Below, piece by piece: positions 7,167 through 32,461 of a stretch of DNA of 64,000 nucleotides. Every line of letters begins with the position of its first letter. Positions within the stretch are counted from its first letter, which is position 1. The stretch spans positions 1 to 64,000 of the forward strand of contig NZ_JABFAM010000020.1 in NCBI RefSeq assembly GCF_013623775.1, given 5' to 3'. The notes below the pieces were generated by a model that saw only the letters and a program-made list of their open reading frames with translations, was not told the DNA's origin and made no database searches. The translations under genes and the position numbers were made by a program. Source of the DNA: Rufibacter sp. XAAS-G3-1 (GTDB lineage Bacteria; Bacteroidota; Bacteroidia; Cytophagales; Hymenobacteraceae).

Positions 7167-7360
7167 CCTTTAGAGCGGTCGGGCTGCTAATCGACTGGTG
7201 TGCCACAGCAAATGGCAAAACCAATCCACCTCAAAAAACTCGAAACACTTAGGTAGGCTAATTATTTTAGCATCCCTCATTTCTATGGCACTAATATTAG
7301 TATATTCCCGAGCCTGTTTAAAAGGCACAGAACTGGGTCAGACTAATAAAAAATAAATTG

Positions 7361-12967: not shown

Positions 12968-13690
12968 ATGAGTACCTCGCCCAAAGAGATTACCATTCAT
13001 ACAAGTAGAACTCTTATGTATGCAGAGTTAGCCAAGATAATGGACTATTCTGTTGATAATGGGTTGTTTATAAATGCTTTAGAAGATAACCTGTTAAGCA
13101 AAACCACAAAATCTAATCAGGAGAAGACAAACAAATACCTTAAAACGCTTTACAGTTTTGATAATGAAGCTGTTGAATTTAAAGGCTTTGTGTATTATTG
13201 GAAGATGTCTGAGGAAAATGATAAGTCCCTTCTGGCTCTGCTTTACGCACTTGGTCGTGATTTTCTGTTAGCGGAAAGTGCTGAGACTATACTCAAGGTT
13301 CCAGTAGGAGAGAAAGTAAAAGTTGAGGCTGTTGAAGAAGCACTAGAGTCCTTCCACCCAAACAGATTCACCGCTAAAACAAGAAAATCCGTTGCACAGA
13401 ACCTAATCAGTTCTTGGAAACAAGCTGGCTATATTATAGGCAAAGTTAGGGGCATAAGAACAAAAACTAACCCAACCTACTCTGTAGTAGCCTTTGCTAT
13501 GCTTTTGGCTTACCTTGATCAAAAACGTGGGGAGCTCATCTTACAGAGTAAATGGGTAAGGGCATTAGATTTGTCTGAAACAAAAGTGCGGGAGCTAGCG
13601 GTGGAGGCTGCTAGGCATGACCTTGTACAATATCAATTTGCCGGCAGTGTGACCGTGATTTCCTTTGAAAAATTCTTGTCTAATCTTTAG
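12968..13690 (+). CDS. brxA: BREX protein BrxA (DUF1819)
   Basis: A 240-residue protein matching BrxA in size, helical make-up and position as the first gene of a type 1 BREX operon. The ISSWKQAGYI region and the following helix are in keeping with the DUF1819 family, which has a NusB-like fold and can bind DNA. brxB begins 5 bp after its stop. The exact biochemical role of BrxA in BREX is unsettled; in some systems it is needed for defence but not for methylation. No oddity seen. Confidence 0.88.
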   Translation: MSTSPKEITIHTSRTLMYAELAKIMDYSVDNGLFINALEDNLLSKTTKSNQEKTNKYLKTLYSFDNEAVEFKGFVYYWKMSEENDKSLLALLYALGRDFLLAESAETILKVPVGEKVKVEAVEEALESFHPNRFTAKTRKSVAQNLISSWKQAGYIIGKVRGIRTKTNPTYSVVAFAMLLAYLDQKRGELILQSKWVRALDLSETKVRELAVEAARHDLVQYQFAGSVTVISFEKFLSNL

Positions 13691-13695
13691 TAATA

Positions 13696-14241
13696 ATGGC
13701 TTCAAAAGTTGAAAGTCTTTTAGAGGCTTTTGAGCGGGTTCTGATGGAGCCATGGACTCAAACTCTATCAGCACAGGAGAGAGTGTGGTTTTTGGTCTAT
13801 GACCCTGCAGACCAGCGGAGAATTGACTTGAGGCTGGGTGACTTCGAGGCCGCCGCTGTGCAGGCAGGCAAACGCTGGGTCCACATATCCTTGAAAGTGT
13901 GTTTTTCTGATTGGATGTCAAGGCATGAATACCGGGAAGAGTATTTTGCTGATCCAGAGGCGTTGGCAGACCAACTGGAAGTGGAGTTTAAGCCTTTTGT
14001 GATTGAATATATAGGCAAGGAGATTGACAAGTCAGGTACTGATTCAAATACACTAATTGTGGTCAAAGATGTGGCGGCGGTTTTTGGATTTGCCCGTCTG
14101 TCAAATATCATCAGTACTGCTTCCGAGCATGTGAAAGGAAGAATGCTGGTGCTTTTTCCAGGAGAATTTAATAAAAACCAATACAGACTTCTAGATGCCC
14201 GCGATGGTTGGAGTTATCTAGCAAGACCTATAATAGCATAA
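13696..14241 (+). CDS. brxB: BREX protein BrxB (DUF1788)
   Basis: A 181-residue protein of the DUF1788 family, the second gene of the BREX operon. The end of the protein (RMLVLFPGEFNKNQYRLLDARDGWSYL) is the conserved BrxB tail. It lies between brxA (5 bp) and brxC (13 bp). BrxB is thought to act in the BREX complex with BrxC and PglZ; no enzymatic motif is visible. Confidence 0.9.
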   Translation: MASKVESLLEAFERVLMEPWTQTLSAQERVWFLVYDPADQRRIDLRLGDFEAAAVQAGKRWVHISLKVCFSDWMSRHEYREEYFADPEALADQLEVEFKPFVIEYIGKEIDKSGTDSNTLIVVKDVAAVFGFARLSNIISTASEHVKGRMLVLFPGEFNKNQYRLLDARDGWSYLARPIIA

Positions 14242-14254
14242 TATCTAATATTAT

Positions 14255-17200
14255 ATGAATAAGAATAAAGAGCTATTTGAGCTTAATCCAGACGAAAATA
14301 ACCTGGTGAATGACGGGGTAGTGGAAATAAACACAGCCCAAACAGAGAATGGGTTGAAAATTCTGCGTCATGAGTTAAAAACCTTTGTTTGCGAAGGGGA
14401 ATACCAGCAAGGGCTAGTTAGGATTTTGCAAACGTACCTGAACCATATTGATTCCCCTAAACAACCGGCAGCTTGGGTAAGTGGGTTCTTCGGCAGTGGT
14501 AAATCCCATTTAGTGAAGATATTGGGGCAGCTATGGGAGAACTATGAATTCCCTGACGGCACTACTGCCAGGTCTATAAAAGCCTTGCCAGATGACGTGA
14601 ACGAGCTGTTTGTTGAACTGGAAAGGAAGCAAAAAGTACAAGGAAAGCTATCAGTAGCAGGTACATTAAAGGACTTTCCAGCGGCTGACATTCGATATTC
14701 GTTTCTACAGTTGTTCCTAAATGCATTAGGGCTGCCGCAACAATACCATCACTTCAAATTCATTTACTGGGCCAAACAAGAGGGTATCCTGGAGGAACTA
14801 AAAGCTTTAGTTGAGGCAGAAGGTAAGGACTTTAGGAAAGAGTATGAGAACCTGTTTGTATCTTCCACACTAGCTAAGTGCCTACTCCAGCTTAAGCCTG
14901 ATTTTGCCGAGAATGAGGCCAAAGTAAAGGAAAACTTCAAAGCCAACTTTAAACGAGTTGAGACTATTAGTAGAGAACAACTAATTGAAACCATCAAGCA
15001 TGAAGCACTTCCAATGTTTCATGGTGCTAAAATACCATGCACTATCATTGTGCTAGATGAGGTACAGCAATTTATTGGTACAGATGGCAACAAAACCATA
15101 GATATCCAGAACTTGGCGCAAGAGCTTTCAAGTGGGTTTGACGGTAAGTTTTTATTGGTAGCGACTGGTCAAAATGCCTTGTCAGAAACACCGTCCCTGC
15201 AGCCCCTTCAAGACCGATTTAGCGTGAAGGTATCTCTTTCAGATACAGACGTAGAGACGGTAACCCGCAAAACAGTTCTTCAAAAGAAAGCTACTGCTGT
15301 AAAGCTGATAGAGAAAAGACTGGAAGACAGCCTTGGAGAAATTTCCAGGAATTTGGCTGGTACTGATTTCGGCTATAATACCAATGATAAAACTAACCTT
15401 GTGGCAGACTACCCTATTTTGCCCTCTACCAGGAAGTTTTGGAAGAAGGTTTTGCAGGCCATTGATACCGCAGGTACTTCAGGACAGCTCCGTAGCCAAT
15501 TAAGAATTGTAGATGATAGTCTTAAGCATGTCGCAAATAAGGATGTAGGATACGTTATTCCGGCAGATTACATTTTTGTGCAGAAGCAGCAACAACTTCT
15601 ACAGAATGCATTGCTGCTGAATGAAACAAATAACCTAATACAGGAGAGAAAAGCCCAGGGTGGTGATGGGGTGTTGGAAAGTCGGATACTTAGTGCTGTA
15701 TTCCTTATGGAAAAACTGCCCTCAAATGGGCAGAGCAACCGCTTAAAGTCTGATGAGAATACGATTGCAGACTTGTTGATTGACAACCTGGTGGAGCCTT
15801 CTGATAAGTTCAGGACAAATGTGAAGGAGCTAATCAAGAAGCTGGTAGAAAAGAAAGTGTTGATGCCTGTAGATGATGAATTCAAGCTACAAACCAAAGT
15901 AGGGGCCGAGTGGGAGCAAGAATACAGCAAGCATGCTCAAAAGCTGAACAATTCTTCTGGGGAAGATCAAATCGACCAGTTAAGAAAGGAGAAGATTCTT
16001 GCCTTTTTCAGAGACAGAACCAAGACTATAAATATACTACAAGGTGTCTCCAAGCAAAAAAGGGACTTTGAGGTCTGGAACCAATCCGCTAAACCAAATA
16101 CGGAGAACAAACTCCATTTTTGGGTAAAAGACGGATGGTTTGAGAACGAAGCCATCTTAATGCAGGACATCCGCGGAGAAGGGGCTAATACACCCCTAGC
16201 ATATGCCTATGTTAACAAACAACGTGATCAGGAGCTGCGGGGGGAAATCATAAAATTCCTAGCTGCTAAGCAAACCCTAGATGCCAAAGGGCTTCCTGGT
16301 ACACCGGAGGGCCAGCAGGCGCAAAGAAGCATGGAAACCCGTAAGGGACTGGCTTTGCAGGCTGTACAAGATATTATCAATAATATCTGCAAGGAGGCAA
16401 GTATATTCCTCGCGGGTGGTAATAAAGTAGATCAGGGCAACGTAGGGGAAAATATCAAAGAAGCCCTCGAGAGCACCGCTTTAAGGCAATTCTCTGATTT
16501 CACAAAAGGTGACTACAGAGACTGGGATAAAGCACTTACAAAAGCTATAGCCAATGATCTTGAAGCAATGAAGCGAATTGGTTGGGATAAAGAGCCAAAG
16601 GACCATCCTATTGCCACAGAGATTTTGCGCTTCATTGCCAACAGCACCAAAACAGGTAAGGAAATTAGAAATCACTTTACAAAGTCTCCTTATGGCTGGA
16701 GCCAAGATGCAATAGACACTATAATCTTGATGCTTCGGTTAACCGAGCATATTTCTACTCCTGAAACTAACCTTAATCAATCTAAAATAGGAGCGGCTGC
16801 ATTCAAAAGAGAAACGCATACCCTCTCTGCATTGGACAGAATTAATATTAGGAAGATTTACCAGGAGGCAGGGATAAACTGTAAATCAGGAGACGAATTT
16901 GTTCACTCTAACACTTTCCTATCCCAGCTTAAATATTTGGCTAATAAGGTAAGTGGAGATTCTCCATTGCCTGAGCCTATAAGCATTCAGTTTATCAAAG
17001 ATATTGAGAACCTAGACGGAAACCAGCGCCTGGTGAGTATTCTTGAGCAGCAGGAGGACCTTAAGGCTAAGTATAAGGACTGGAGCCAAAAGGATAAACT
17101 GGTGGTAAAGCGGGAACAGATGTGGGGTGTGCTCAATTCTTTGATGCACCATGTCCCTGTAGCAGCTGAAGTTGAGCAACTGCAGAAAGAAGCAGAAGCT

Positions 17201-17689
17201 GTGAGAGAGGATAGACTGTTGCTGCATGAGTCAGATCTAGTAGGACCATTGGTTGTTCGGATAACCGACTTGTTGAACCAATTGCTCCAACAAGTCAAAG
17301 AGAATTTCAATGCCACATATGATGCTCTCAAAGCAGAGCTTGAAGCGAACGAGCATTTCCTGAAAATAGAACCTGATGAGCGCCAAAAAATTCTGGCCAA
17401 GCACCAGATTTTACATCGACCAGAAATAAAGGTGTTAGATGCACAGGCAATGCTAAACCAACTGCAGCATGAAAGCCTGAACACATGGGAGATCAAGATA
17501 GCCGCATTGCCAGGCCAGTTTGCTTCTGCCATAGCTGAAGCAGTTAAACTGACACAGCCCAAAGCAAAAACATACTCTACTCCTAAGAAGACTATAACAA
17601 GTAAGCCCGAATTGGAGCAGTATATAATTCAATTGAAGACTGAAATTGAAGAGTTGTTGGAAAGCAGTTCTTCTGTGATTATCAATTAA
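14255..17689 (+). CDS. brxC: BREX P-loop ATPase BrxC
   Basis: A 1144-residue AAA-type ATPase, typical BrxC/PglY size. The Walker A motif GFFGSGKSHL lies near residue 80 and the Walker B motif TIIVLDEVQQF near residue 262. Long helical, coiled-coil-prone segments (around residues 560-600 and 960-1070) fill the C-terminal half. It precedes pglX by 7 bp. BrxC is an essential part of BREX and is thought to form large ATP-dependent assemblies on DNA with PglX, PglZ and BrxB. The frame is intact. Confidence 0.95.
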   Translation: MNKNKELFELNPDENNLVNDGVVEINTAQTENGLKILRHELKTFVCEGEYQQGLVRILQTYLNHIDSPKQPAAWVSGFFGSGKSHLVKILGQLWENYEFPDGTTARSIKALPDDVNELFVELERKQKVQGKLSVAGTLKDFPAADIRYSFLQLFLNALGLPQQYHHFKFIYWAKQEGILEELKALVEAEGKDFRKEYENLFVSSTLAKCLLQLKPDFAENEAKVKENFKANFKRVETISREQLIETIKHEALPMFHGAKIPCTIIVLDEVQQFIGTDGNKTIDIQNLAQELSSGFDGKFLLVATGQNALSETPSLQPLQDRFSVKVSLSDTDVETVTRKTVLQKKATAVKLIEKRLEDSLGEISRNLAGTDFGYNTNDKTNLVADYPILPSTRKFWKKVLQAIDTAGTSGQLRSQLRIVDDSLKHVANKDVGYVIPADYIFVQKQQQLLQNALLLNETNNLIQERKAQGGDGVLESRILSAVFLMEKLPSNGQSNRLKSDENTIADLLIDNLVEPSDKFRTNVKELIKKLVEKKVLMPVDDEFKLQTKVGAEWEQEYSKHAQKLNNSSGEDQIDQLRKEKILAFFRDRTKTINILQGVSKQKRDFEVWNQSAKPNTENKLHFWVKDGWFENEAILMQDIRGEGANTPLAYAYVNKQRDQELRGEIIKFLAAKQTLDAKGLPGTPEGQQAQRSMETRKGLALQAVQDIINNICKEASIFLAGGNKVDQGNVGENIKEALESTALRQFSDFTKGDYRDWDKALTKAIANDLEAMKRIGWDKEPKDHPIATEILRFIANSTKTGKEIRNHFTKSPYGWSQDAIDTIILMLRLTEHISTPETNLNQSKIGAAAFKRETHTLSALDRINIRKIYQEAGINCKSGDEFVHSNTFLSQLKYLANKVSGDSPLPEPISIQFIKDIENLDGNQRLVSILEQQEDLKAKYKDWSQKDKLVVKREQMWGVLNSLMHHVPVAAEVEQLQKEAEAVREDRLLLHESDLVGPLVVRITDLLNQLLQQVKENFNATYDALKAELEANEHFLKIEPDERQKILAKHQILHRPEIKVLDAQAMLNQLQHESLNTWEIKIAALPGQFASAIAEAVKLTQPKAKTYSTPKKTITSKPELEQYIIQLKTEIEELLESSSSVIIN

Positions 17690-17696
17690 CAACCTT

Positions 17697-20600
17697 ATGG
17701 CAGTTTTAACTTCCGCTCAACGCAGCTTTTTAGAAAACACAGTTATAAATGCCCGTAAGCATGCCGAGATAGGTGCTCGCAATGCATTGCAGGCCCTGGC
17801 AGTACATCACATGGAGCCATTTAGCCATATGGATGCTGAGCAGCGCTCTTTGCGTAACCGCTTGCGCCACAAAGCTCGCCTATTGGGTGATGCTGTGCTA
17901 GACAAAGGAGAACACCAGATAGACCATTTGGCGTATGAGCTCGCCTATGAATATTGGCACCAGATGCTCTTTGCTAAGTTTTTGGAGGCAAACGGGCTGC
18001 TGATGCATACAAGCGGTGTTGCGGTGAGCATGGAAGATTGCGAAGAACTTGCCCGTGAAGAAGCCTATGCGGATAAGTGGGCTGCAGCAGCAGACTATGC
18101 TTCCCGCATGTTGCCAGCTATATTCCGACCTGATGACCCAATAATGCAAATAAATTTTGCCACTGAGGACCGTTTTAAGCTGGAGGGGCTGCTAGATAGC
18201 TTGGAAGAAGAACAGTTTATAGCTGATGATAGTTTGGGTTGGGTATATCAGTATTGGCAGACAGAGGAGAAGAAGCGTCTTGATAAAAGTAGCGATAAAA
18301 TAAATGGTGAAAAAGTACCAGCTAAAACTCAGTTATTTACTGAAGCTTACATGGTTAACTTTCTTATTGATAATACTATAGGCGCTTGGTGGATAAGCCG
18401 TAACCCAGGTACAACACCTCCTGTAAAGTTTGAGTACCTGCGGCTTTTAGAAGATGGCACACCAGCAGCAGGTAAATTTGAAGGCTGGCCAGATAAAATG
18501 GCTGAAGTCACTTCACTTGACCCATGCATGGGATCAGGGCACTTTGTGGCTTCTCTTTTCCCGGTGTTTGCGAAGCTGCGTATGCACGAAGAAGGGCTTA
18601 CGAAGGAAGAAGCCACGGATAAAGTAATTGCCGAAAACCTGCACGGTTTAGAGCTGGATCCACGCTGTACCCAGATTGCGGCATTTAACCTAGCAATTAC
18701 TGCCTGGAAGTTTTGCGGACAGTATAAGGAGCTCCCTGAAATGAATTTGGCTTGTAGTGGCGTTGCGCCAAAAGGCAAGCAGGATGACTGGGTGAAACTG
18801 GTGGGCAAGGTAGATAGAGTAGAAGATAAGGCGCGGCTGGAGAATGGCATGAGAATGCTTTATGATCTATTTCAACTTGCTCCAGAATTAGGTAGCCTGC
18901 TTGACCCTTCAACTATAAAAGCAGATGCGTTCACAGCAAGCTTTGAAGAGTTGAAACCTGTATTACAAAAAGCTCTTGATGGGGAAGTAGACAAAGATCA
19001 AGCTGAACGAGGGGTTGTTGCTGCAGGTATTGCTAAAGCAGGTGAAATCCTTGCACAAAAGTATACTCTGCAAATCACAAACGTGCCATATTTATCTCGT
19101 AGCAAACAAGATAATGTTATAGCGGACTACTGTGAAAAATATTATCCAGAAGCGAAAGCGGATTTGGCTACAGTTTTCCTAGAGAAAATGCTTAAATCAA
19201 ATATCTATGGGGGAATTTCCTGTAGTGTGATACCTCAAAATTGGTTGTTTCTAACTACATATCAAAAATATAGGGAAAAGCTTTTGAAGAATGAGCAGTG
19301 GAGTGTTATTGCTAAGCTAGGAACAAAAAGCTTTCAAACACCTATGTGGGATTTTAATGTAATGCTAATTAGTATTCAGCATCTTAAGCCTATTGTTAAT
19401 TATGAATTTTGTGGATTAGATGTCTCTAAATCACCAAATGCAACCACAAAAGAGAAAGCCTTAAGAAGTAGTGATATAAAAATCGTCAATCAATTAGATC
19501 AATTCAATAATCCAGATACACGAGTAGCTCTAGGTGATATTGAGAATATTGAACTATTGTCTAAGCATTCCTACTCATATCATGGTCTTACAACTGGGGA
19601 TATGCCATGTATGAAGTTTTTTTTCTGGGAATTTAACAAAATTCCAAATGAGTGGATATTGTTTCAGGGGACAGTTAAGCGAAATATCAATCATGGGGGA
19701 AAGGATTCATTATTGCGATGGGAGAATGGAACAGGGTTAATTCAAACTCTTCTTGGGGCTAGAAAAGATGGATTGGAGGCTTGGGAAAAGAAAGGAGTAG
19801 TGGTAAGTCAAATGGGGTCCTTGCCTGTAACTCTATATACAGGTACTGCATTTGATAATAACACTTCTGTAATTATTCCTGAACAGGAATCTGCGTTACC
19901 TGCAATTTGGTCCTTCTGCTCTTCGACAAAATATAAGGACGCGGTAAGAATAATTGATCAAAAGTTAAATGTAACTAGTGCAACACTTGCCAAAGTCCCC
20001 TTTGACCTATCATATTGGCAGAAGATAGCAGCAGAACAGTATCCGAATGGACTGCCTAAGCCATATAGTGATGATGCCACGCAGTGGTTGTTCCACGGTC
20101 ATCCTGTAAAAGCTGAAAACCCGCTACAGGTAGCTACTTCTCGAATGATTGGCTATCGCTGGCCAGCAGAGAGTGAAAAGGAGATGGAGTTGGCTGCCGA
20201 AGCCCGAGAGTTGATTGCTGCTGTTGAGGCTTTTGATGGATTAACCGATGAGGATGGTATTCTCTGCATCCCTTCTGTAAACGGGGAAATGCCCGCAGCT
20301 GAAAGGCTAAGAGAATACCTACAGGCGATTTACGGCTCTGACTACACTACCCATACTATTGAAGAGCTGCTCCAGAAGGAAGGATCCAAGAAAGCGAACT
20401 TGGATGAATGGCTGCGTGAAGAGTTCTTTGAGCAGCATTGCAAGACCTTCCAGAACCGTCCTTTCATCTGGCACATTTGGGACGGTCGCAAGGATGGATT
20501 CTCCGCGCTAATTAACTATCACAAGCTGACCAAAGAGAACCTGCAGAAGCTTATCTATACCTACCTTGGCGACTGGGTCAGGCACTGTGAGCAAAAACGC

Positions 20601-20966
20601 AAGCACGGTGAGAGCGGTGCTGATGGCCTGCTGATGGCGGCAAATGCTTTGAAGGAAAAGCTGGAGCTGATATTAGAGGGAGATGCCCCTTATGATGTCT
20701 TCGTTCGCTGGAAAACACTGGAGCAGCAGCCTCTCGGCTGGGACCCAGATTTGAACGATGGGGTGCGCCTGAACATCCGCCCGTTTATAGAAGCTGGTGT
20801 GCTGCGCAAAAGGGTGAATTTGAAATGGGGGGTGGATAGAGGCAAGAACCCAGCAGGAAGCCCTTGGGGAGAAGTACGTGATAATGATAAACATCTTTCA
20901 TTAGAAGAAAAGAGTGCTGCCCAAGCAAATGTAAGGGTTAGTAGAGAGTCTGTTATTTCACAATGA
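17697..20966 (+). CDS. pglX: BREX adenine-specific DNA methyltransferase PglX
   Basis: A 1089-residue N6-adenine methyltransferase. Motif I, the SAM-binding loop, is LDPCMGSGHF near residue 275; motif IV is TNVPYLSR near residue 461, an NVPY form of the usual NPPY that I believe occurs in other PglX proteins. The region 470-780 should hold the target-recognition part and is visibly more AT-rich than both flanks. The C-terminal part (FIWHIWDGRKDGFSALINYHKL) is a PglX signature. A run of eight T lies at 19617-19624. It methylates a non-palindromic site to mark self and is needed for defence. pglZ overlaps by 4 bp. Confidence 0.96.
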   Translation: MAVLTSAQRSFLENTVINARKHAEIGARNALQALAVHHMEPFSHMDAEQRSLRNRLRHKARLLGDAVLDKGEHQIDHLAYELAYEYWHQMLFAKFLEANGLLMHTSGVAVSMEDCEELAREEAYADKWAAAADYASRMLPAIFRPDDPIMQINFATEDRFKLEGLLDSLEEEQFIADDSLGWVYQYWQTEEKKRLDKSSDKINGEKVPAKTQLFTEAYMVNFLIDNTIGAWWISRNPGTTPPVKFEYLRLLEDGTPAAGKFEGWPDKMAEVTSLDPCMGSGHFVASLFPVFAKLRMHEEGLTKEEATDKVIAENLHGLELDPRCTQIAAFNLAITAWKFCGQYKELPEMNLACSGVAPKGKQDDWVKLVGKVDRVEDKARLENGMRMLYDLFQLAPELGSLLDPSTIKADAFTASFEELKPVLQKALDGEVDKDQAERGVVAAGIAKAGEILAQKYTLQITNVPYLSRSKQDNVIADYCEKYYPEAKADLATVFLEKMLKSNIYGGISCSVIPQNWLFLTTYQKYREKLLKNEQWSVIAKLGTKSFQTPMWDFNVMLISIQHLKPIVNYEFCGLDVSKSPNATTKEKALRSSDIKIVNQLDQFNNPDTRVALGDIENIELLSKHSYSYHGLTTGDMPCMKFFFWEFNKIPNEWILFQGTVKRNINHGGKDSLLRWENGTGLIQTLLGARKDGLEAWEKKGVVVSQMGSLPVTLYTGTAFDNNTSVIIPEQESALPAIWSFCSSTKYKDAVRIIDQKLNVTSATLAKVPFDLSYWQKIAAEQYPNGLPKPYSDDATQWLFHGHPVKAENPLQVATSRMIGYRWPAESEKEMELAAEARELIAAVEAFDGLTDEDGILCIPSVNGEMPAAERLREYLQAIYGSDYTTHTIEELLQKEGSKKANLDEWLREEFFEQHCKTFQNRPFIWHIWDGRKDGFSALINYHKLTKENLQKLIYTYLGDWVRHCEQKRKHGESGADGLLMAANALKEKLELILEGDAPYDVFVRWKTLEQQPLGWDPDLNDGVRLNIRPFIEAGVLRKRVNLKWGVDRGKNPAGSPWGEVRDNDKHLSLEEKSAAQANVRVSRESVISQ

Positions 20967-23287
20967 GTTTATCTAAGAAGATAATTAAAAGCCTTACTAA
21001 GGCTAAAGAATATAATAGTGCCATCATGGTGAAGCCAGAGGTAATCCTCTGGCCTGATCCTGAGTGCCAGTGGGAGTCTGTTATACTTGAGTTGCAAAAG
21101 GAGTTTGAAGCTTTACTTGTGCTAGGAGAGTTTAACCCCGAAGCAAAGCAAGGACCTGCTATCTGGATAAAGTGCATGGTAAATAAAGCCTTACCTGAAG
21201 CTACTTGGAGCACTGACGAAACACCTATTATTTATTTACCTGGCATTTCAAAAAGTGACTTAAAGAATAGTGCAGATGATAACCTAGCGCTGCAGCCTCT
21301 CTTAGAGTACTTGTATACCGGCAACATCTGGACCCAGGAAAACGGCAAAGAGTGGACACTGTTAGCTTTCCTGCAAAACAAACAGGCTGGACTTGGTATT
21401 AAAACAGCACAGGATACACCCACTAAAGATGCCCTCAAAAAGGCGCTTCCAAGTATCTTCAATGAGGAACATGCTCTTTATAATAAACCTGTTATAGATG
21501 CTGACTACTTGCACAGCATTCTGTTCCCTGATGTAGTACCTAACATTGTGAAATGGTTGAACGAAGGGGATACGTTTCTCAATGGTTTGCCTAAAGACAA
21601 GCTGGAGATTTTTTCGAACATCTGTCAGTCACAGTATGGCTTCAAGCCAGAAAAGATCAGTCTAATAGCAGCCGCTGAAAAGCTTGGCTCCCAAAACAAC
21701 AACTGGAAACAGGTGTGGGATTACTTTGCCAATGCCCCGAAAAAGTACCCTAACATTCCCACGCTACTAAGATCAGCTAAGCCGGCAGTCTTTGGTTTAG
21801 GTTTATTTGATTTACCTAAGGAAAGCTGGCCTCAAATTAATGAGGAAGAAGAAGAGAAGCTCAGAAATGGGTTGAAAGCGCTTTGTAAAGACTTTCCACT
21901 GGAGGCAACTCTAAAACTACGGAGTTTGGAAAGTGAGCATGCCCAGCGCAGAGAATGGTTATGGGCTGACTTAGGCGAGGCTCCTCTTGTTCAGGCACTA
22001 GAGCACTTAGTTTACATGGCTGAAACTTCACTTGAGCCTATACCTGCAGGCTCTATAGAAGAAATCAAGCATTACTACACAGATAGAGGCTTCAGGGTAG
22101 ACCAAGGTATGCGTTTAGCACTGGCCAAGGTTAAATCAGAACAGGATAAAGAAGTAATAAAAGCTGTAATCAATTGCGTTTATAAACCCTGGCTTGAAAA
22201 TACAACTTCTAAATTCCAAGCATTAGTTGAAAAGGACAGCTACATTTTTACATCGCAAACCGCTCAGGGGGAAACAGAAGGCTTTGTCCTTTTTGTGGAT
22301 GCCTTCCGTTTTGAGCTAGCTAAGCAGTACACAGACAGGCTTGCAAAGAGCAACAACTATAAAGTACAGCTCCTGCCTACTTGGTCTGCCATTCCTAGTG
22401 TAACGCCAACAGCCAAGCCACATGTTTCACCAATTGCTCTTTCTCTTTCACCTGAGAGCCACTTCAATGAGTTTAGACCTCAAACCTTGGCAGCTAAGGA
22501 TCTAAATACTACTGTATTCCGCAGTGCCTTACAAGAGATCGGGTTCAATTACATAGGCAATAATGTAAACATATCGTCAGAGTCTATGCAATGGCGTGAG
22601 ATAGGCGATATAGATACTAAAGGGCATGATGAGCAATCTGGTATGGTTCGTAGGGTAGACGAACTTTTTGACCAGATTGATGAAGTAATCGAAACAGCTG
22701 TGTCAAAAGGTATAACTAAAATCAAAATAGTAACAGACCATGGTTGGCTGTTGCTTCCGGGTGGTCTGCCAAAGGAAAGCTTACATAAAGACTTAGCTGA
22801 GACGCGTTGGGGGAGGTGTGCGCTTATAAAGGAAGGTGCAAAAACAAACCTCCTTCATTTGCCATGGAGATGGAACAAACAAGTGCATATTGCCTATGCA
22901 CCTGGTATAAGCTTCTTTATTAGAATTAACGAGGAGTACGCCCACGGCGGTATCTCATTGCATGAGTGCCTGATACCTGAACTACTGATAGAGACAAATG
23001 CTAAAACCCCTGCAAATAAGGGCAAGATCATTAACTTCAAATGGGTAAACCTTAATTGCAAAGTGGAGGTGAAAGATGAAGCGGAAGGTTATAAAATAGA
23101 TGTAAGAACCAAGCCTTCAGATCCGTCTACTTCTATTGCAATTTCAAGAAACCGGGTTGTAAAAGATGGAAAATGCTCTATTATGGTTGATGATGCTGAA
23201 GAAGGAAATGCAGCTATGATAGTGCTATTAGACAAAAACGACAATATTATTGATAAGATGCCAACCCAGGTTGGTCCTGAAGCATGA
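20963..23287 (+). CDS. pglZ: BREX alkaline phosphatase-like protein PglZ
   Basis: A 774-residue protein of the PglZ family. The metal-binding core of the alkaline phosphatase-like fold is visible as VLFVDAFRFELAK (near residue 445) and IVTDHGWLLLPGG (near residue 595). The ATG overlaps the pglX stop and its own stop overlaps the brxL start by 4 bp each, so translation is coupled. PglZ is required for BREX activity; its substrate is not known, though metal-dependent nuclease activity has been reported for the family. Frame intact. Confidence 0.95.
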   Translation: MSLSKKIIKSLTKAKEYNSAIMVKPEVILWPDPECQWESVILELQKEFEALLVLGEFNPEAKQGPAIWIKCMVNKALPEATWSTDETPIIYLPGISKSDLKNSADDNLALQPLLEYLYTGNIWTQENGKEWTLLAFLQNKQAGLGIKTAQDTPTKDALKKALPSIFNEEHALYNKPVIDADYLHSILFPDVVPNIVKWLNEGDTFLNGLPKDKLEIFSNICQSQYGFKPEKISLIAAAEKLGSQNNNWKQVWDYFANAPKKYPNIPTLLRSAKPAVFGLGLFDLPKESWPQINEEEEEKLRNGLKALCKDFPLEATLKLRSLESEHAQRREWLWADLGEAPLVQALEHLVYMAETSLEPIPAGSIEEIKHYYTDRGFRVDQGMRLALAKVKSEQDKEVIKAVINCVYKPWLENTTSKFQALVEKDSYIFTSQTAQGETEGFVLFVDAFRFELAKQYTDRLAKSNNYKVQLLPTWSAIPSVTPTAKPHVSPIALSLSPESHFNEFRPQTLAAKDLNTTVFRSALQEIGFNYIGNNVNISSESMQWREIGDIDTKGHDEQSGMVRRVDELFDQIDEVIETAVSKGITKIKIVTDHGWLLLPGGLPKESLHKDLAETRWGRCALIKEGAKTNLLHLPWRWNKQVHIAYAPGISFFIRINEEYAHGGISLHECLIPELLIETNAKTPANKGKIINFKWVNLNCKVEVKDEAEGYKIDVRTKPSDPSTSIAISRNRVVKDGKCSIMVDDAEEGNAAMIVLLDKNDNIIDKMPTQVGPEA

Positions 23288-25335
23288 CTATGGAATTGGA
23301 TAAAATAGACCGGATTGCCTCAGAAGCATTTGAAGGGTATATTGTTAGGAAGGATTTACTGGAACAATTTAGGAAAACATACCCTGTTCCAACTTATGTG
23401 ATTGAATTCTTGCTTGGTAGGTACTGTGCTACTACAAATGAAGAGGAGATTCAGGAGGGCCTTGAAATTGTAAAACGCCAGCTACAGGATAGAACCGTCC
23501 GGCCTGGGGAGGAAGAGTATTTCAAGTCTAAAGCAAGGGAAAAAGGGTCTATCAAGATCATTGACATCATCACCGCTAAGCTTGATTCCCGCACAGATAG
23601 CTATGTTGCTTACTTACCTAGCCTACGCCTGAATAACATCCGCATTTCCCCTGAGATGGTAAGTGCAAACGATAGAATGTTGACAGGTGGGTTTTATGCT
23701 GAGCTGGAGGTAGAATATGATAACGCCATTGCCCAGGAGAATAACGGTCGCCCCTTTGGTATTACCAGTTTGAGGCCAATACAACTGTCGCAACGGAATG
23801 TTGTGGAAACGCTTTACCAAGGTAGGCAGTCTTTTACACTAGAAGAATGGAAGGACTTTCTGATTAGGAGTGTAGGCATGGAGCCTACTGCTCTATCTGA
23901 GAGAGCCAAAAATGTGCTACTTGTACGCATGATCCCTTTTGTGGAGCGGAATTACAATGCCGTTGAACTTGGGCCCAGGGGAACTGGCAAATCCCACCTA
24001 TACCAGCAGATTTCTCCCTACTCGCATCTTGTGTCTGGAGGTAAGACAACGGTTTCTAAAATGTTTGTGAACTTAGGCAGCGGCGAACGCGGCTTGGTTT
24101 GCAAGTATGATGTGGTCTGCTTTGATGAAGTCTCCGGGGTTTCCTTTGACCAAAAAGATGGAGTAAACATCATGAAGGGCTACATGGAGAGCGGTGAGTT
24201 CAGCAGGGGGAAGGAGCCTATTAGAGCTGATGGAGGCGTGGTGTTAGTTGGTAACTTTGATGTAGATGTAGAGCACCAGCAACGCGTAGGTCATTTGTTT
24301 GGACCCTTGCCTCCGGAGATGCGCGATGATACCGCCTTTATGGACCGTATACACGCCTTTGTTCCGGGGTGGGATTTCCCCAAACTAAACAAGGCCTACT
24401 TTACGGACCATTTTGGCTTGGTGAGTGACTTTTTAGCTGAGTGCTGGACAAGACTTAGGGACAACAGCCGGATATCTTCTGTTTTACCAAGAGTTGATTT
24501 TGGAGGAGCAATGAGTGGTAGAGATACCACGGCTGTCTATAAGACCATGAATGGGCTCTTAAAACTCATGCAGCCAAATCCTGAAGAACCTATTTCTGAT
24601 GAGCTTTTAGAATGGGCTGTAAAAGTTTCTCTAGAATATAGACGAAGAGTAAAGGAACAGCAAAAACGCATTGGGTCAGCTGAATTCCGGAATACCCATT
24701 TCAGTTACAGAATTGGTCTAGAAGGGGTTGAAACCTTTGTCACTACCCCCGAGCTTCATAGTGAGAATACTATTGGAGAAGACCCTCAGCCACCAGGGCA
24801 AGTATGGACCATTAATACCAGCAGCCAAGACGAACCAGCAGGCTTATATAAGATAGAAGTAAATGTTGGTCCAGGCAGTGGTGTGAAAATTCTAAATAGA
24901 CCTGCACCTGCCCAATTTCAAGAGAGTGTAAGAATCGCTGAGCAAAACCTTTATAGTAAGACTAAGGAGTTGGTGGGAGATAGAGATTCGCGCAGTCATG
25001 AATTCTCCGTGCAACTCAGATCCTTTGATGCGTCTAAATCTGGAAGTGGGGTAGGCATGGGAGTTCTGGTGTCTCTTTGTAGTGCTCTTTTGGAGCGAAG
25101 TCTTAAAGGCGGTTTAGTGATAGTTGGGCACCTTAATCTGGGTGGCTCTACAGATTTAGTTTATAATGCTGTAAACTTAGCTGAATTGGCTGTAGAGAAG
25201 GGAGCCACAACTTTGCTAATACCTTTGAATTCCAGAAGGCAGTTAAATGATCTTTCGGATGATATGATTACGAAAATTAATATTCAATATTACACTGATT
25301 TGAGAGACTGCTTGATGAAAGCTCTATTAGAATAA
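23284..25335 (+). CDS. brxL: BREX Lon-like AAA+ protein BrxL
   Basis: A 683-residue protein. The AAA+ part has Walker A GPRGTGKSHLY (near residue 232) and a Walker B-like VVCFDEVSGV. The C-terminal 120 residues (SKSGSGVGMGVLVSLCSALL, then GHLNLGGS) match the Lon protease-like end of BrxL. It is the last gene of the type 1 BREX operon and is followed by a strong hairpin terminator. BrxL forms DNA-bound hexamers or dodecamers and is needed for phage exclusion, while being dispensable for methylation in some systems. Confidence 0.95.
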   Translation: MTMELDKIDRIASEAFEGYIVRKDLLEQFRKTYPVPTYVIEFLLGRYCATTNEEEIQEGLEIVKRQLQDRTVRPGEEEYFKSKAREKGSIKIIDIITAKLDSRTDSYVAYLPSLRLNNIRISPEMVSANDRMLTGGFYAELEVEYDNAIAQENNGRPFGITSLRPIQLSQRNVVETLYQGRQSFTLEEWKDFLIRSVGMEPTALSERAKNVLLVRMIPFVERNYNAVELGPRGTGKSHLYQQISPYSHLVSGGKTTVSKMFVNLGSGERGLVCKYDVVCFDEVSGVSFDQKDGVNIMKGYMESGEFSRGKEPIRADGGVVLVGNFDVDVEHQQRVGHLFGPLPPEMRDDTAFMDRIHAFVPGWDFPKLNKAYFTDHFGLVSDFLAECWTRLRDNSRISSVLPRVDFGGAMSGRDTTAVYKTMNGLLKLMQPNPEEPISDELLEWAVKVSLEYRRRVKEQQKRIGSAEFRNTHFSYRIGLEGVETFVTTPELHSENTIGEDPQPPGQVWTINTSSQDEPAGLYKIEVNVGPGSGVKILNRPAPAQFQESVRIAEQNLYSKTKELVGDRDSRSHEFSVQLRSFDASKSGSGVGMGVLVSLCSALLERSLKGGLVIVGHLNLGGSTDLVYNAVNLAELAVEKGATTLLIPLNSRRQLNDLSDDMITKINIQYYTDLRDCLMKALLE

Positions 25336-26187: not shown

Positions 26188-26877
26188 ATGGAGTATCATA
26201 AATATATCGCCTATTACCGGGTGTCCACCGTCAAGCAGGGCAGGAGCGGGCTTGGCTTGGAGGCCCAGCGGGCAGCCGTCATCTCCTATGCCAAGGACCC
26301 GTGCGGCATCCTGCAGGAGTTCACCGAGCAGGAGTCGGGCAAGAATGACGACCGCCCGCTCCTGGAGCAGGCGATCCTGGCGGCCAAGCGGCATGAGGCC
26401 ACCCTGATCATCGCCAAGCTGGACCGCCTGAGCCGGGAGGTGGCTTTCCTCTTCCAGCTCAAGAAGCGGGTGGAGCGTAACAGCATTAGCTGGCTGTGCC
26501 TAGACATCCCCGAGATGAACACGCTCAACATCGGAATCTGGGGGACCATGGCCCAGCACGAGCGGGAGCAGATCAGCAAGCGCACCAAGGCGGCGCTGCA
26601 GGCCCTGAAAGCAAGGGGCAGGAAACTGGGCAACTTGGAGAACCTGACCGACGTCGGCCGAGGGCTCGGCGTGGAGGCGATCAAGAGGAAAGCGGCCGCT
26701 AACGAAAACAACCGGAGGGCCGCGGAGCTGATCCGCCTTTACAGGGAGCAGGGGGCCACTTGGGTGACCATCGCCGGCAAACTGAACCAGTCCGGTTTCA
26801 AGGCGAGCAAGGGAGGGGTTTTCCAAGCCGTGCAGGTGAAGCGAATCTATGAGCGCTATTGTCTCGTCTCTGGCTAA
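26188..26877 (+). CDS. Serine recombinase (resolvase/invertase family)
   Basis: A 229-residue small serine recombinase. The catalytic Ser is in YYRVSTVKQ (residue 11); the conserved arginines lie in AKLDRLSREVAFL; EREQISKRTKAAL is the E-helix entry, followed by a basic AR-G-K hinge and a C-terminal HTH-like part. Start ATG 26188 gives the standard YIAYYRVST beginning. It is GC-rich relative to the island. It stands alone between the BREX unit and the RT gene and may have carried or rearranged this segment. Confidence 0.9.
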   Translation: MEYHKYIAYYRVSTVKQGRSGLGLEAQRAAVISYAKDPCGILQEFTEQESGKNDDRPLLEQAILAAKRHEATLIIAKLDRLSREVAFLFQLKKRVERNSISWLCLDIPEMNTLNIGIWGTMAQHEREQISKRTKAALQALKARGRKLGNLENLTDVGRGLGVEAIKRKAAANENNRRAAELIRLYREQGATWVTIAGKLNQSGFKASKGGVFQAVQVKRIYERYCLVSG

Positions 26878-27068
26878 GCTACCGGTCCGGTCCCGGGTGT
26901 AGCGAACCACCTTTCTCCGGTTCTTGCAGAAGCATACAATTCTTAGCTGGGGGGATTCTAGTATATGGAGCTCCCTTTGAGGTGTATTAATCCTGTCTAG
27001 CAATCCAACCTGGCCTCTATTATATATTATAAACCCAGAAGTGCGTTAGTCAAATAAAATAAAAAGCA

Positions 27069-27190
27069 ATGGCTTGAATCGGATTTGTCAGTGATTCAGG
27101 ATCCCATAGGCTTGGGTATTGATTCCTCAGAGGACTTACCCTCCTGCATTAAGGTCGTACTGGAGAAGGAGAGCAGGATAAAAATTTTAA
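27069..27190 (+). pseudogene. Broken paralogue of the DUF3800-like gene (5' end only)
   Basis: The first 120 bp align with the start of the intact gene at 7361: both share GGATTTGTCAG, GATTCAGGATC-like and TTGAGGAC-like stretches, and about 30 bp upstream are also alike (cagaa-tg-gt ... aataaaa). Codon 3 is now TGA and codon 18 is TGA, and homology ends near 27190. The remnant reads SDSGS where the intact gene has SESGS. The level of divergence points to an old paralogue and not a fresh duplication. Confidence 0.75.
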
Positions 27191-27434
27191 ATAATATAGC
27201 ATTATACTATATTTAACTACATCTTTTTGTAGTTTGTAGTTGAATTGCTGCAGCAGCAGGCATGCCTCTCTTTGTTTAGGGTAAGGGTTATATGTGTTTC
27301 CTATCGTGCTAGCCCAACCTTAAACACTGGCTCATATCTATTCCCCCATTTACTTGGAATAATATAGTATGTCCCTACTAAAATAGCGGTGTTCACCATA
27401 TTTCTCAACAAGGGATTAAGTAGTTCAAGATTAG
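27191..27434. other. Non-coding leader of the RT gene
   Basis: No gene is visible in these 244 bp. It contains a small stem (ACTACA / TGTAGT near 27218-27235) and AT-rich sequence suitable for a promoter. Some defence RTs use a nearby non-coding RNA; nothing here proves one. Confidence 0.3.
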
Positions 27435-30400
27435 ATGCAAAACGAAAGGAAAATAGAGCGGCTTACGATAGGAGAGGCCAATGACGAGATTATAACAGCT
27501 TACCGTAAATTCAAGTCCCTTATATACAACGAGAATTACTCCCTTCCTCTCCGTTTGCAGTTGGCTAGATATGAGGCTTTAGGGATTGACAAAAAGTTAA
27601 GAATCCTCGCGAGTAAAATAGCTTCGTGCGATGACAGTTTCGTTGATAGTAAAATTGAGAGGATAAGCTTCGCTTGCTATCCGAAGCAGTTGAAGGGGGC
27701 GGAGGAGAGTAAGTTCGAGGGTGTGTTTTTTTCCAACAAAAGGAGCAGCGAGTCATATACCTGCCCCCGGCTCACCACCTTTATAGAATGCCCTGTCGAG
27801 CTCCACATTCTTTCTGTCCTTTGGGTGATGCGGCTTGGCCACAAGCTTGACAAAGACTTGGCTGACTCCTGCTTTGCGAACAGGCTGCACAGAAATACAG
27901 ATGAGGAATTTTACGGGAACGGTATCCGTCTTTTTCAAAAATACTTTGAACGGTATTCAAGTTGGCGAAATGAGACCATATCTAAAGCCAAGGCGTTACA
28001 CCAGCAGGGGCTGAACACAGCTATCTTGAACCTGGACCTTAAGGACTTCTACCATTCGGTTGATTTTGACCTTTCAAAAGAAATCCCAACTCAAGGGGGT
28101 TCTTTCGATGAATGGCTGAATAGGAAGCTTGCTGATATCCATCAAAAATATGCCGACTGTCTTTTTGAGGAGGGCCTTATCAGGGAACCCAGGCGCATTC
28201 TGCCTGTTGGGCTAGTGTCCTCAAGTATCCTTGCAAACCACTACCTCAAAGATTTTGACCAGTGCATAGAAGACTTTGTGAACCCATATTTCTATGGGAG
28301 GTATGTAGATGATATTATGCTTGTTTTCAAGTCGCCCTCCGACTTGGAAAAACAAACAGACCCGGTGGCCTCTTTTGTGAAAAGATTCATCCAGCAGCCT
28401 TTGGATAACAGCGAGGGTTGCCTGAAGGTAGATGAGGCAAAGGGAGGGGAGGGAAGTCCTGAAGATACTGTATTCAGTATTGACTATAAGGGGAATAAAC
28501 TCACCTTCCAACAATCAAAGGTGAAACTATTCAACTTTCAAAAGGATGAGCCTTTAAGCTTGCTTGAAGAATTTGAGGAGAACATCCGAAAGAACAGTAG
28601 TGAATTCCGGATGTTACCGGAAGAGGACAGTCTAATGGATTCATTCGACAAAGCCTCTTCGCATATCAGCTATTCAGACTCAATAAATAAGATAAGGGCT
28701 ATAGAAGGCTTTCGTTATGACAGGCTGCAGGCTTCTAAGCACTTAAGCTTCCTGATAAATTCGTCCAAAAACACGCACGCGTTTGATGACGGGAAGATCA
28801 GGAAAGTATGTGAGAATATTGAGGAGTTCTTCAGGGGGGTCAACTGTATCGACCTGAATGGGATGTGGGAGAAGGTGTTTACATTCTTTATCATCAATCG
28901 GCAGTATGATAAGGTTATAGACTTCACCAAAGCCATTATCTCCGAAATTGAAAAAGTAAAATATGCTCCGGAAGGAAAACTAGAGGCTAAAGAAATAGAG
29001 CAAATAGGCTCTTGGGTTAGGGGAGACTTGGTACTTCAACTTTTCGATAGCCTAGCCATGGCGGCAACCTTAGACCTCAAGGCATTTGAGGAAAAGGTTA
29101 TAAAGTACCTTGAAGGGGACTTCAAGGAACACACTGGATATGCTGCAAATCTGCTGAAGAGGCAACTGGGACTGATCACGAGGAAAGCTGAGCGGCTTAT
29201 CAAGTCAAACATGCTCAGGCACAATTACATTTCCTACCCTTTGCTGAATTATTGCGAAATAGTGGGGGCAGAGGAGAACCCAAGGGTTAATTTTCTGGAT
29301 GCAAGCTTTACTCTTTCATTCCACCCAAAATTGGAAAACGAAGATTCCCCTAAGATAAGATTTTCCCCAAGGTTCATCCACTACCACGAGGTTTGCATTT
29401 TCTATGCTGCCACTAGGCACAACCAGGAGAAGCTGGGACCTGTTTTTGAGGAGGAGTTCATCAACATGGAGTATTGGAGACTGAACCGTTCCACCCAGGA
29501 CGGAGCCAAGGAATATCCGAGCTCCTCTGCAGAAAAGACAAGTATAGAATCCACCATTGATCAGATCGAAGTTGAATTACAGGCAGAGGATGAGAGTGTA
29601 GACCAATTCCTTGCAGGTTTTCCCCAGCATCAGAAGGGAAATGAAAAAGAAAGCGTCAAAGACGAGGACTTTAAAATCATCACTTTAGGTAAAAGACCGG
29701 GCAAAGGGATACTCAGAGTGGGTATGGCAAATATCAAAGTAAAGCCTTCCGATTCTATAAATTCTTTCCTAGGCAAGCCTAACATCAGCTTCAGTAGACA
29801 GTTGGATCTCTTTTGTATTTTAAATGAGGCTCTCAGGACTAAATCAGACATAGTGGTTTTCCCTGAGATTTCGGTACCTTTCTCCTGGCTGAGTACAATC
29901 ACGGAGTTCGTCAGGAAGAGCAATGTGGCCTTAGTCTGCGGGTTAGAGCATGTCACAAGCTCAGACGGGAAGGTACTGAACTATGTCGCGACTATTTTGC
30001 CATTTAAACATGGCAAATACAGAAACGCCTTCGTGGACCTACGTTTGAAAAGAGACTATTCCCATAGTGAGGAGAAGCTTATCAAAGGCCACAAGGGCTT
30101 TTCAATACCTGATTTGGAGGAGCGGAGACGTCACAGGTTAAGGATCTACGACTGGAACGGGATTGCCTTCAGTGTGTTCAACTGCTTTGAATTCTCCGAT
30201 ATCAGCAAAAGGGCACCTTTGAAGGGAAACGTAGATTTTGTGGTCGCAGTGGAGTACAATAAAGATACAACGTATTTTTCCAATATCTCAGAGTCCGCAG
30301 CAAGGGATATCCATTCCTATGTCATTCAGGTGAACGATTCCACTTGGGGGGACAGCCGCATAGTCCAGCCTTCCATGACAGAAACTAAGGACATCGTACG

Positions 30401-30560
30401 GATTAAGGGGGGAGACCATATCCACATCGTCACTGGTGAGATCAACATCAATGAGCTTCGTGAGTTCCAGATGAAGGAGTATTCCCTACAGGAACACAGC
30501 CAAAGTTTTAAACCTACTCCTCCTGGTTTTACGATCAGTGAAGAAAGGAAGCCTTGGTAA
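27435..30560 (+). CDS. Reverse transcriptase-nitrilase fusion (DRT type 1-like)
   Basis: A 1041-residue single protein. Residues about 100-450 form an RT: motif A LDLKDFYHSVD (Asp201), motif B PVGLVSSSILANHYL, and YVDD at 290-293 in FYGRYVDDIML. Residues about 450-740 are helical linker. Residues 760-1010 form a nitrilase-like CN hydrolase with the full triad: Glu811 in VVFPEIS, Lys872 in DLRLKRDY and Cys917 in VFNCFEF. RT plus C-terminal nitrilase is the plan of DRT type 1 (UG1) anti-phage systems, though other unknown-group RTs also pair with nitrilases. All catalytic residues are kept, so it should be active. It is monocistronic, with no maturase or retron msr/msd features seen. Confidence 0.9.
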   Translation: MQNERKIERLTIGEANDEIITAYRKFKSLIYNENYSLPLRLQLARYEALGIDKKLRILASKIASCDDSFVDSKIERISFACYPKQLKGAEESKFEGVFFSNKRSSESYTCPRLTTFIECPVELHILSVLWVMRLGHKLDKDLADSCFANRLHRNTDEEFYGNGIRLFQKYFERYSSWRNETISKAKALHQQGLNTAILNLDLKDFYHSVDFDLSKEIPTQGGSFDEWLNRKLADIHQKYADCLFEEGLIREPRRILPVGLVSSSILANHYLKDFDQCIEDFVNPYFYGRYVDDIMLVFKSPSDLEKQTDPVASFVKRFIQQPLDNSEGCLKVDEAKGGEGSPEDTVFSIDYKGNKLTFQQSKVKLFNFQKDEPLSLLEEFEENIRKNSSEFRMLPEEDSLMDSFDKASSHISYSDSINKIRAIEGFRYDRLQASKHLSFLINSSKNTHAFDDGKIRKVCENIEEFFRGVNCIDLNGMWEKVFTFFIINRQYDKVIDFTKAIISEIEKVKYAPEGKLEAKEIEQIGSWVRGDLVLQLFDSLAMAATLDLKAFEEKVIKYLEGDFKEHTGYAANLLKRQLGLITRKAERLIKSNMLRHNYISYPLLNYCEIVGAEENPRVNFLDASFTLSFHPKLENEDSPKIRFSPRFIHYHEVCIFYAATRHNQEKLGPVFEEEFINMEYWRLNRSTQDGAKEYPSSSAEKTSIESTIDQIEVELQAEDESVDQFLAGFPQHQKGNEKESVKDEDFKIITLGKRPGKGILRVGMANIKVKPSDSINSFLGKPNISFSRQLDLFCILNEALRTKSDIVVFPEISVPFSWLSTITEFVRKSNVALVCGLEHVTSSDGKVLNYVATILPFKHGKYRNAFVDLRLKRDYSHSEEKLIKGHKGFSIPDLEERRRHRLRIYDWNGIAFSVFNCFEFSDISKRAPLKGNVDFVVAVEYNKDTTYFSNISESAARDIHSYVIQVNDSTWGDSRIVQPSMTETKDIVRIKGGDHIHIVTGEININELREFQMKEYSLQEHSQSFKPTPPGFTISEERKPW

Positions 30561-31462: not shown

Positions 31463-32461
31463 ATGACTATTATATATATGGAAGAAAATATAGCTAATTT
31501 AGAAAACACCAATGATTTCAAAATAGTCTTCGCCAGTGATCTTCATGAGATAGATGCCAATACATTGGCTAATTTTCTCATAAGTATGAACTCTATAATT
31601 CAAGAAGTAAATCGAGAATTAGAGTCAAACTCTACAGTTAATGTCCATATCACGGGTTTTAGGAAGGGTAGTTTTCATGTTTATTTTAGGGTAATAAGAC
31701 GCTTTTTATCCTCTACACCAGGACCTCTTACGAGTTCAAAATTTACAAATGCAGCTGACCTTATTACAATTTTAAGCGGATTATATGGTTTTGCGGTATT
31801 TATAGGTGGGCAGGAACCGGCAAAGGAAATCCCGAACAATAACGGAGTAACTATTCAAAACCAGCAAGGCGCTAATATTACGGTCAATAATATTGTTTAT
31901 AACATATATACAACCAATTCGGTCGTAAGTAAGGCCATTGCGAAAAGTTCTAAGGTTCTAGAAAATGACAAATCAATTGAAGGTTTTGTTATTGCTAATT
32001 CCGAAGCTATGGAAATTATAAGCATACCGAGGAAAAATTTTAGTGCGTTGTCTAAACCTAATCAGTTCCTTAAAAAACAGACGAAAAGGCTTGCAAACCC
32101 AGAATATATTCAGGAGAAAATATCGGTACAAAAAGAACTGAATGATAATCGCATAGAAACACTTGAAATTAAGAATGCAGCCCTAAGTATTATTATGCTA
32201 TCTTTTGATTCCGAGCAGGAGTCGTATTTTCTTTATGATGGACAAAAAATAAGTGCAAAAATTAGCGACAAGCAATTCATCGACAGCATCAATCAGGGCA
32301 GACGTTTTTCTAAAGATGACGTCTTTATTGTGGATCTAAAATTAAAGCGTGAACATTACCAATCGGAAAAACCTATGGTAGTTAACAATTATGAAATCAC
32401 TAATGTTATAGAACACATTCCTGGGGGCACGCATAACAGCCGTGTTCAAAATAATGATTGA
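31463..32461 (+). CDS. Unknown protein, 332 residues
   Basis: A soluble, AT-rich gene. The N-terminal 100 residues form an alternating strand/helix region (VNVHITGFRKGSFHVYFRVIRRFL); a hydrophobic stretch near residues 95-115 (ADLITILSGLYGFAVFIGG) could be a membrane or buried helix; a beta-rich repeat-like piece (GVTIQNQQGANITVNNIVYNIY) follows, then a charged C-terminal domain. I know similar effector-like proteins only loosely and give no function. Start may be ATG 31463 or ATG 31478. Confidence 0.6.
   Translation: MTIIYMEENIANLENTNDFKIVFASDLHEIDANTLANFLISMNSIIQEVNRELESNSTVNVHITGFRKGSFHVYFRVIRRFLSSTPGPLTSSKFTNAADLITILSGLYGFAVFIGGQEPAKEIPNNNGVTIQNQQGANITVNNIVYNIYTTNSVVSKAIAKSSKVLENDKSIEGFVIANSEAMEIISIPRKNFSALSKPNQFLKKQTKRLANPEYIQEKISVQKELNDNRIETLEIKNAALSIIMLSFDSEQESYFLYDGQKISAKISDKQFIDSINQGRRFSKDDVFIVDLKLKREHYQSEKPMVVNNYEITNVIEHIPGGTHNSRVQNND

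Follow-up and report, generated by a model that had tools for sequence, protein, structure and literature searches.

The DNA analysed here (the window) is a stretch of 64,000 nucleotides from Rufibacter sp. XAAS-G3-1 (contig NZ_JABFAM010000020.1, positions 1 to 64,000). It lies on a circular Rep_3 plasmid, and the contig ends in a 73-bp direct repeat; the plasmid location proposed in a first-pass annotation was borne out. The plasmid carries a gene for a reverse transcriptase (RT)-nitrilase fusion of the UG5 family (Table 1). The same annotation had described an intact fusion of 1041 amino acids with YVDD at residues 290-293 and the nitrilase residues Glu811, Lys872 and Cys917, and all of these were confirmed in the open reading frame (ORF) 27435-30560. 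The predicted structure of the RT module (residues 1-688) had a mean predicted local distance difference test score of 88.5 and a predicted template modelling score of 0.91. In an alignment of 82 rows (81 related loci and the window; L084, L093 and L105, which are short or incomplete, were excluded), YVDD, Glu811, Lys872 and Glu879 showed no exception among the rows that cover them. Cys917 aligned to the cysteine of the ICYD motif in 9yfd, the structure of defence-associated reverse transcriptase type 1 (DRT1), which we took as Cys1116 of PMC13275509.

Table 1. Features of the UG5 gene and its surroundings, in window coordinates; row counts refer to the alignment of UG5 relatives
Feature	Position	Strand	Remarks
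UG5 reverse transcriptase-nitrilase fusion gene	27435..30560	+	ORF, 1041 aa; PADLOC RT_UG5-nitrilase, 847 bits, residues 15-1039
RT palm region, residues 180-316	27972..28382	+	RVT_1, E 1.9e-12
YVDD catalytic motif, residues 290-293	28302..28313	+	82/82 rows
Ser389, candidate protein-priming residue, end of helix 375-389	28599..28601	+	80/81 rows; putative equivalent of DRT1 Ser402
Nitrilase (CN-hydrolase) domain, residues 755-1034	29697..30536	+	
Nitrilase catalytic Glu811	29865..29867	+	82/82 rows
Nitrilase catalytic Lys872	30048..30050	+	81/81 rows
Nitrilase catalytic Cys917	30183..30185	+	79/80 rows
C-terminal lid motif KPTPPG, residues 1026-1031	30510..30527	+	K1026 73/82, P1029 70/82 rows
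Degenerate copy of a DUF3800-like gene start, before the 244-bp leader	27036..27171	+	72% identical to window 7328-7462
Complete type I BREX operon (BrxA, BrxB, BrxC, PglX, PglZ, BrxL)	12968-25335		upstream of UG5
Serine recombinase	26188-26877		61.6% GC, against 43% for BREX and 44% for UG5 (43-44%)
LAPAL-family/PDC-S42 protein	31463-32461		downstream of UG5; PADLOC candidate defence protein
PDC-S02 protein	11661-12593		upstream of BREX; PADLOC candidate defence protein

The best-scoring PADLOC family for the protein was RT_UG5-nitrilase (PDLC03780), which matched along the whole length (847 bits, profile positions 22-897 of 907), whereas Drt1a reached 105 bits in two stretches. In a maximum-likelihood tree built from 46 selected RT domains, the window and L032, a relative from Pontibacter, fell within a 23-row UG5 clade (99/98), and the UG1 rows formed a clade of 6 of their own (100/99). 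Four more UG5 rows and L009, which has a long branch, joined outside the 23-row clade; support for these joins was moderate (90/89, 87/86). Rows were labelled from PADLOC hits, those of L029 and group II from motif reading and generic RT hits. The whole of UG5 (28 rows) was held together moderately (87/86), and the sister grouping of UG1 and UG5 was weak (81/45). The first-pass annotation had proposed the plan of DRT1 and had asked for phylogenetic placement among UG RTs, counting a position outside UG1-like clades against its reading. The domain plan is indeed that of DRT1, but the family is UG5, and membership of DRT1/UG1 was rejected on the PADLOC scores and the position outside the UG1 clade.

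In the scheme of Mestre and others, as cited through PMC13275509, class 3 UG/Abi enzymes are multidomain proteins that combine an RT with a nitrilase or phosphohydrolase, and the window protein has this composition. PMC8934634 assigns a C-terminal nitrilase to 'unknown classes 1 and 5'. With UG5 as the best family over its full length, an RT in the UG5 clade and a C-terminal nitrilase bearing Glu/Lys/Cys, the window protein belongs to the class 3 UG/Abi defence reverse transcriptases as a stand-alone member of UG5. This named family is known but little studied; in the accessible text of the open-licence PMC literature, preprints aside, it appeared only in classification papers and PADLOC annotation tables.

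Related loci numbered 84, comprising the best 80 of 450 from genome contigs and four (L112-L115) from viral contigs. The first scan of viral contigs confirmed no relative; an alignment-based scan gave 52 loci, of which these four span most of the query. No match to the UG5 gene was present in 50,697 phage records. Relatives were found in Bacteroidota, Balneolota, Pseudomonadota, Bacillota, Campylobacterota, Melainabacteria and archaea. The closest found was L032, about 61% identical to the window protein; the remaining 63 aligned rows were at most 42% identical, with best single segments up to 44% (analyses A3, A4 and A5 took in 70, 65 and 66 sequences). A single ORF runs across the match in 79 of the 84 loci (628-1239 amino acids, the short ones being cut or incomplete) and two ORFs in the other five. 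Three members (L007, L008, L113) have separate, neighbouring RT and nitrilase genes and are scattered among fused ones in the tree, where the split or fused state forces at least two changes. Because the split members stand at different places, splitting or fusing seems to have occurred more than once, with the partners staying together.

Among 395 genomes of the same phylum, 116 matched the UG5 profile at E 0.001. Scores above 360 bits were confined to the window and G295, G282, G211, G307, G002, G159 and G239; the next best match was a partial nitrilase in G342 (123 bits), and the others, which include at least three UG1 proteins (G215, G270, G149), had at most 77 bits. Fifteen further genomes of the genus yielded one relative (G397, one open frame of 1109 amino acids, matched in two pieces) and one weak RT match (G398, E 4e-4). 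No near-identical plasmid was found for window positions 12000-33000. Between the window and L032, identity was 61% over 1035 codons, synonymous change was saturated and the ratio of nonsynonymous to synonymous change (pN/pS) was 0.28; the protein is therefore under purifying selection. The window holds a real, intact, plasmid-borne UG5-nitrilase gene, of a known kind and not DRT1 proper; it is a one-gene candidate for phage defence and probably a defence gene.

DRT1 makes semirandom, A-rich DNA without a template, primed on Ser402, and its defence is lost in RT (D324N/D325N), nitrilase (C1116A) and Ser402 mutants (PMC13275509, 2026). The first-pass remark that the contribution of the nitrilase to defence is not known is thus out of date for DRT1, in which both active sites are needed. 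The DNA adducts, which stay short, drive the formation of tetramers and dormant filaments; the C-terminal residues cover the nitrilase as a lid, and K1219A and A1223F are as harmful as deletion of the tail. The authors leave the trigger and the nitrilase substrate open (PMC13275509). Priming, assembly, trigger and cell arrest in UG5 can be proposed by analogy. The RT would add nucleotides to a serine of its own, Ser389 being the best candidate, without template RNA. The DNA adduct would drive assembly, while the C-terminal lid (Lys1026 and the PP motif) would keep the nitrilase ready but shut. Disturbance of the adduct or the assembly by a phage product would free the nitrilase to hydrolyse an essential small molecule, and infected cells would halt before phage release.

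Ser389 is serine in all but one of the 81 UG5 rows counted (L068, whose RT frame stops near the motif and has Ile at that position, was excluded); among the other serines of the window protein only Ser263, in the palm, reaches 90%. In the exceptional row, L089, the aligner sets Thr at 389 and a serine stands two positions earlier. The motif-E lysine (Lys362) precedes Ser389 by 27 residues in 73 of 80 rows; the spacing is 26 residues in five others, and 29 and 32 in one each. In the six UG1 rows a conserved serine lies 25 to 29 residues past the same lysine, and in DRT1 itself Ser402 is 29 residues past Lys373. Around the serine, UG5 typically has a motif such as SSEFR, and UG1 has VSGEFD or a variant close to it. 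In the predicted structure Ser389 closes helix 375-389 and is followed by a low-confidence loop; in DRT1, loop 382-478 is not resolved in the structure (PMC13275509). The conservation of Ser389 at a DRT1-like spacing is new here and predicts a priming site for UG5.

Several observations tell against this assignment. The profile alignment of UG5 with UG1 (hhalign) was confident only to about window residue 375, and for this reason the match of Ser389 to Ser402 rests on spacing and motif; restricted to residues 340-440, hhalign gave a non-significant result (probability 0.3) in another register. Ser402 is stated not to be conserved in other class 3 DRTs (PMC13275509), and Ser389 could be a structural helix cap. 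Priming might then start elsewhere in the protein, from a tyrosine or from several residues, with the DRT1-like scheme otherwise kept. Tyr23, Tyr170, Tyr174, Tyr287 and Tyr875 are conserved about as well as Ser389, conserved tyrosines probably prime DRT9 (PMC13213688), and the statement that Ser402 is not conserved beyond DRT1 (PMC13275509) points the same way. However, Tyr875 lies in the nitrilase, Tyr170 and Tyr174 ahead of the palm and Tyr287 beside YVDD, and only Ser389 occupies the post-palm stretch at the DRT1 distance; we consider priming from another residue unlikely and retain Ser389 as the candidate.

UG5 rows often end in FKPTPPGF-like motifs, which hhalign pairs with VKTPPAG of UG1; by this pairing Lys1026 would match Lys1219, and Pro1030 would match Ala1223. 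The lysine is kept in 73 of 82 rows, and the column of Ala1223 holds Pro in 64 and Ala in 13. The essential lid lysine of DRT1 appears, from the aligned tails, to be conserved in UG5 as Lys1026, a second prediction that is new here. In the UG5 relative of Methanobrevibacter millerae (L085:5980-9240), Ser stands at the position of Cys917 and Glu at that of Lys1026; its nitrilase may be inactive. In a different reading the DNA product would itself be toxic or would act as a sponge that takes up phage proteins, as in DRT4 and DRT9, and the nitrilase would be an accessory. Other DRTs do act through their DNA product (PMC13213688), and the RT module is Abi-like. But the catalytic residues of the nitrilase are nearly invariant across very distant rows, DRT1 adducts stay short and C1116A abolishes DRT1 defence (PMC13275509); such a role for the UG5 DNA is improbable, and a nitrilase effector under the lid is preferred.

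The first-pass annotation had also suggested that the 244-bp leader could hide a template RNA, which would make this a class 2-like system with a leader non-coding RNA templating DNA, as in DRT2 and DRT9. The leader folded better than most of its shuffles (z -2.30, 5/200 as good), which is not striking, and no Rfam family reached its gathering score anywhere in the window. The flanks of the UG5 gene had nothing in common with any other fetched locus at E 0.01, L032 included (the best match in L032 had E 0.29 on the upstream side and E 0.039 on the downstream side). In a search of the genome against itself, the only repeat was the 72%-identical pair of Table 1, whose other member is the start of a DUF3800-like ORF (7358-8500; Pfam DUF3800, 17.6 bits, below the cut-off of 21). 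The translated upstream copy retains IGFVSDSGSH, with stops; as a decayed DUF3800-like copy, it makes the region ahead of the leader partly gene debris and not an RNA element. Furthermore, same-strand neighbours lie at most 100 nt away on both sides of UG5 in 11 of 65 loci, a spacing into which an obligate separate RNA gene would hardly fit. The 65 are those of the 84 with neighbours of at least 200 amino acids on either side and neither end cut; they include closely related loci (L067/L104, L060/L112), and neighbours were called by a simple longest-ORF rule. A leader template RNA is therefore not supported and a class 2-like system is very unlikely; an RNA might still lie inside the UG5 coding sequence.

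That the gene is silent cargo with no role in defence, a reading to which the debris upstream and the chance-level number of sigma-70-like promoters (8 found, 8.1 expected) lend themselves, is very improbable, given the intact ORF, the pN/pS of 0.28 and the kept active sites, and a sigma-70 scan is blind to other promoter types.

Most of the elements on which DRT1 function depends appear to be present in the window protein. Weighing these points, we lean slightly towards the DRT1-like scheme as a whole applying to UG5. We go no further because of the statement on Ser402, the stop of the profile alignment near residue 375, the rows that lack the lid lysine (Ala in 5, Glu in one) and the UG1 row L167, from which the lid motif is absent. 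On the same side, UG1 and UG5 are weak sisters and UG5 as a whole has moderate support in the tree, the DRT1 lid numbering comes from PMC13275509 and the UG1 rows and not from the tail of 9YFD itself, filament formation by UG5 would be carried over from DRT1 only, and the literature covered above contained no experiment on any UG5 member.

The surroundings of the gene suggest a further, weaker link. Between BrxL and UG5 lie the recombinase gene and 2.1 kb, and the recombinase is perhaps the agent of a recent insertion. A Rep_3 initiator is also encoded downstream of UG5. Elsewhere in the window, a HEPN-domain protein (6499-6867) follows two proteins (5202-5945, 5951-6502) without Pfam match. 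All three of the HsdM, HsdS and HsdR clusters occur in 11 of the 84 other loci, and two or more of them in 15; these are BLAST clusters, the three subunits being confirmed by Pfam in L104, L046, L053 and L064. In six loci from four genera, UG5 stands directly before hsdR, 1 to 42 nt apart: L037, L067 and L104 (Tenacibaculum), L046 (Aquimarina), L053 (Photobacterium) and L064 (Pseudoalteromonas). No match at E 1e-5 to any of the six BREX proteins encoded in the window was present in DNA from the 84 loci. In L039 and L115 (Drt1b|RTasTM) and L060 (RTasTM), UG5 is followed by a small membrane-protein gene; no such gene adjoins the window UG5, where the next ORFs have 91 and 332 amino acids. In Acinetobacter rudis, a 2TM effector-like gene (L055:6439-7059) lies 82 nt past the UG5 gene.

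UG5 might be a movable guard of modification-based defence that uses DRT1 chemistry (Ser389-primed DNA, lid-locked nitrilase). It would be kept next to BREX or type I restriction and set off by phage inhibitors of these systems or by the consequences of their failure, much as PrrC stands guard over type I restriction. The Hsd company, the six genes directly before hsdR and the BREX operon upstream in the window favour such a role. Against it, the count of 11/84 may not exceed the background for defence genes, no counterpart of the window BREX proteins was found in the other 84 loci, and the recombinase and the 2.1-kb gap intervene; we regard it as a long shot. That UG5 recurs next to restriction and BREX systems may reflect nothing beyond ordinary defence-island company. 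This recurrence and the predictions that extend the DRT1 mechanism to UG5 are what the present analysis adds. DRT1 was explained only in 2026, and UG5 is a second RT-nitrilase family; if Ser389 and Lys1026 act as Ser402 and Lys1219 do, the mechanism would be general to RT-nitrilases, and the natural split RT and nitrilase pairs offer an easy route to its study.

Compared with other UG5-nitrilase RTs, the window protein has the same domain order, full-length profile match, place in the tree and catalytic residues, and no difference in kind. AbiA, AbiK and AbiP2 (class 1 UG/Abi; absent from our RT tree) have an RT followed by a helical repeat, as UG5 does, and AbiA aligns over 356 residues; unlike UG5, they have no nitrilase. 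Class 1 enzymes prime on protein without a template (PMC13275509). DRT1 and UG5 differ in their separate RT clades and in length (1229 amino acids in 9yfd, 1041 in the window), and priming, filaments and defence have been shown by experiment for DRT1, whereas UG5 is known here from sequence and predicted fold. Both DRT1 (UG1, 9YFD) and UG5 join RT, helical repeat and nitrilase in one chain, with YVDD and the nitrilase Glu/Lys/Cys; both appear to share a C-terminal lid lysine and proline, and both have a conserved serine at a near-equal distance past motif E.
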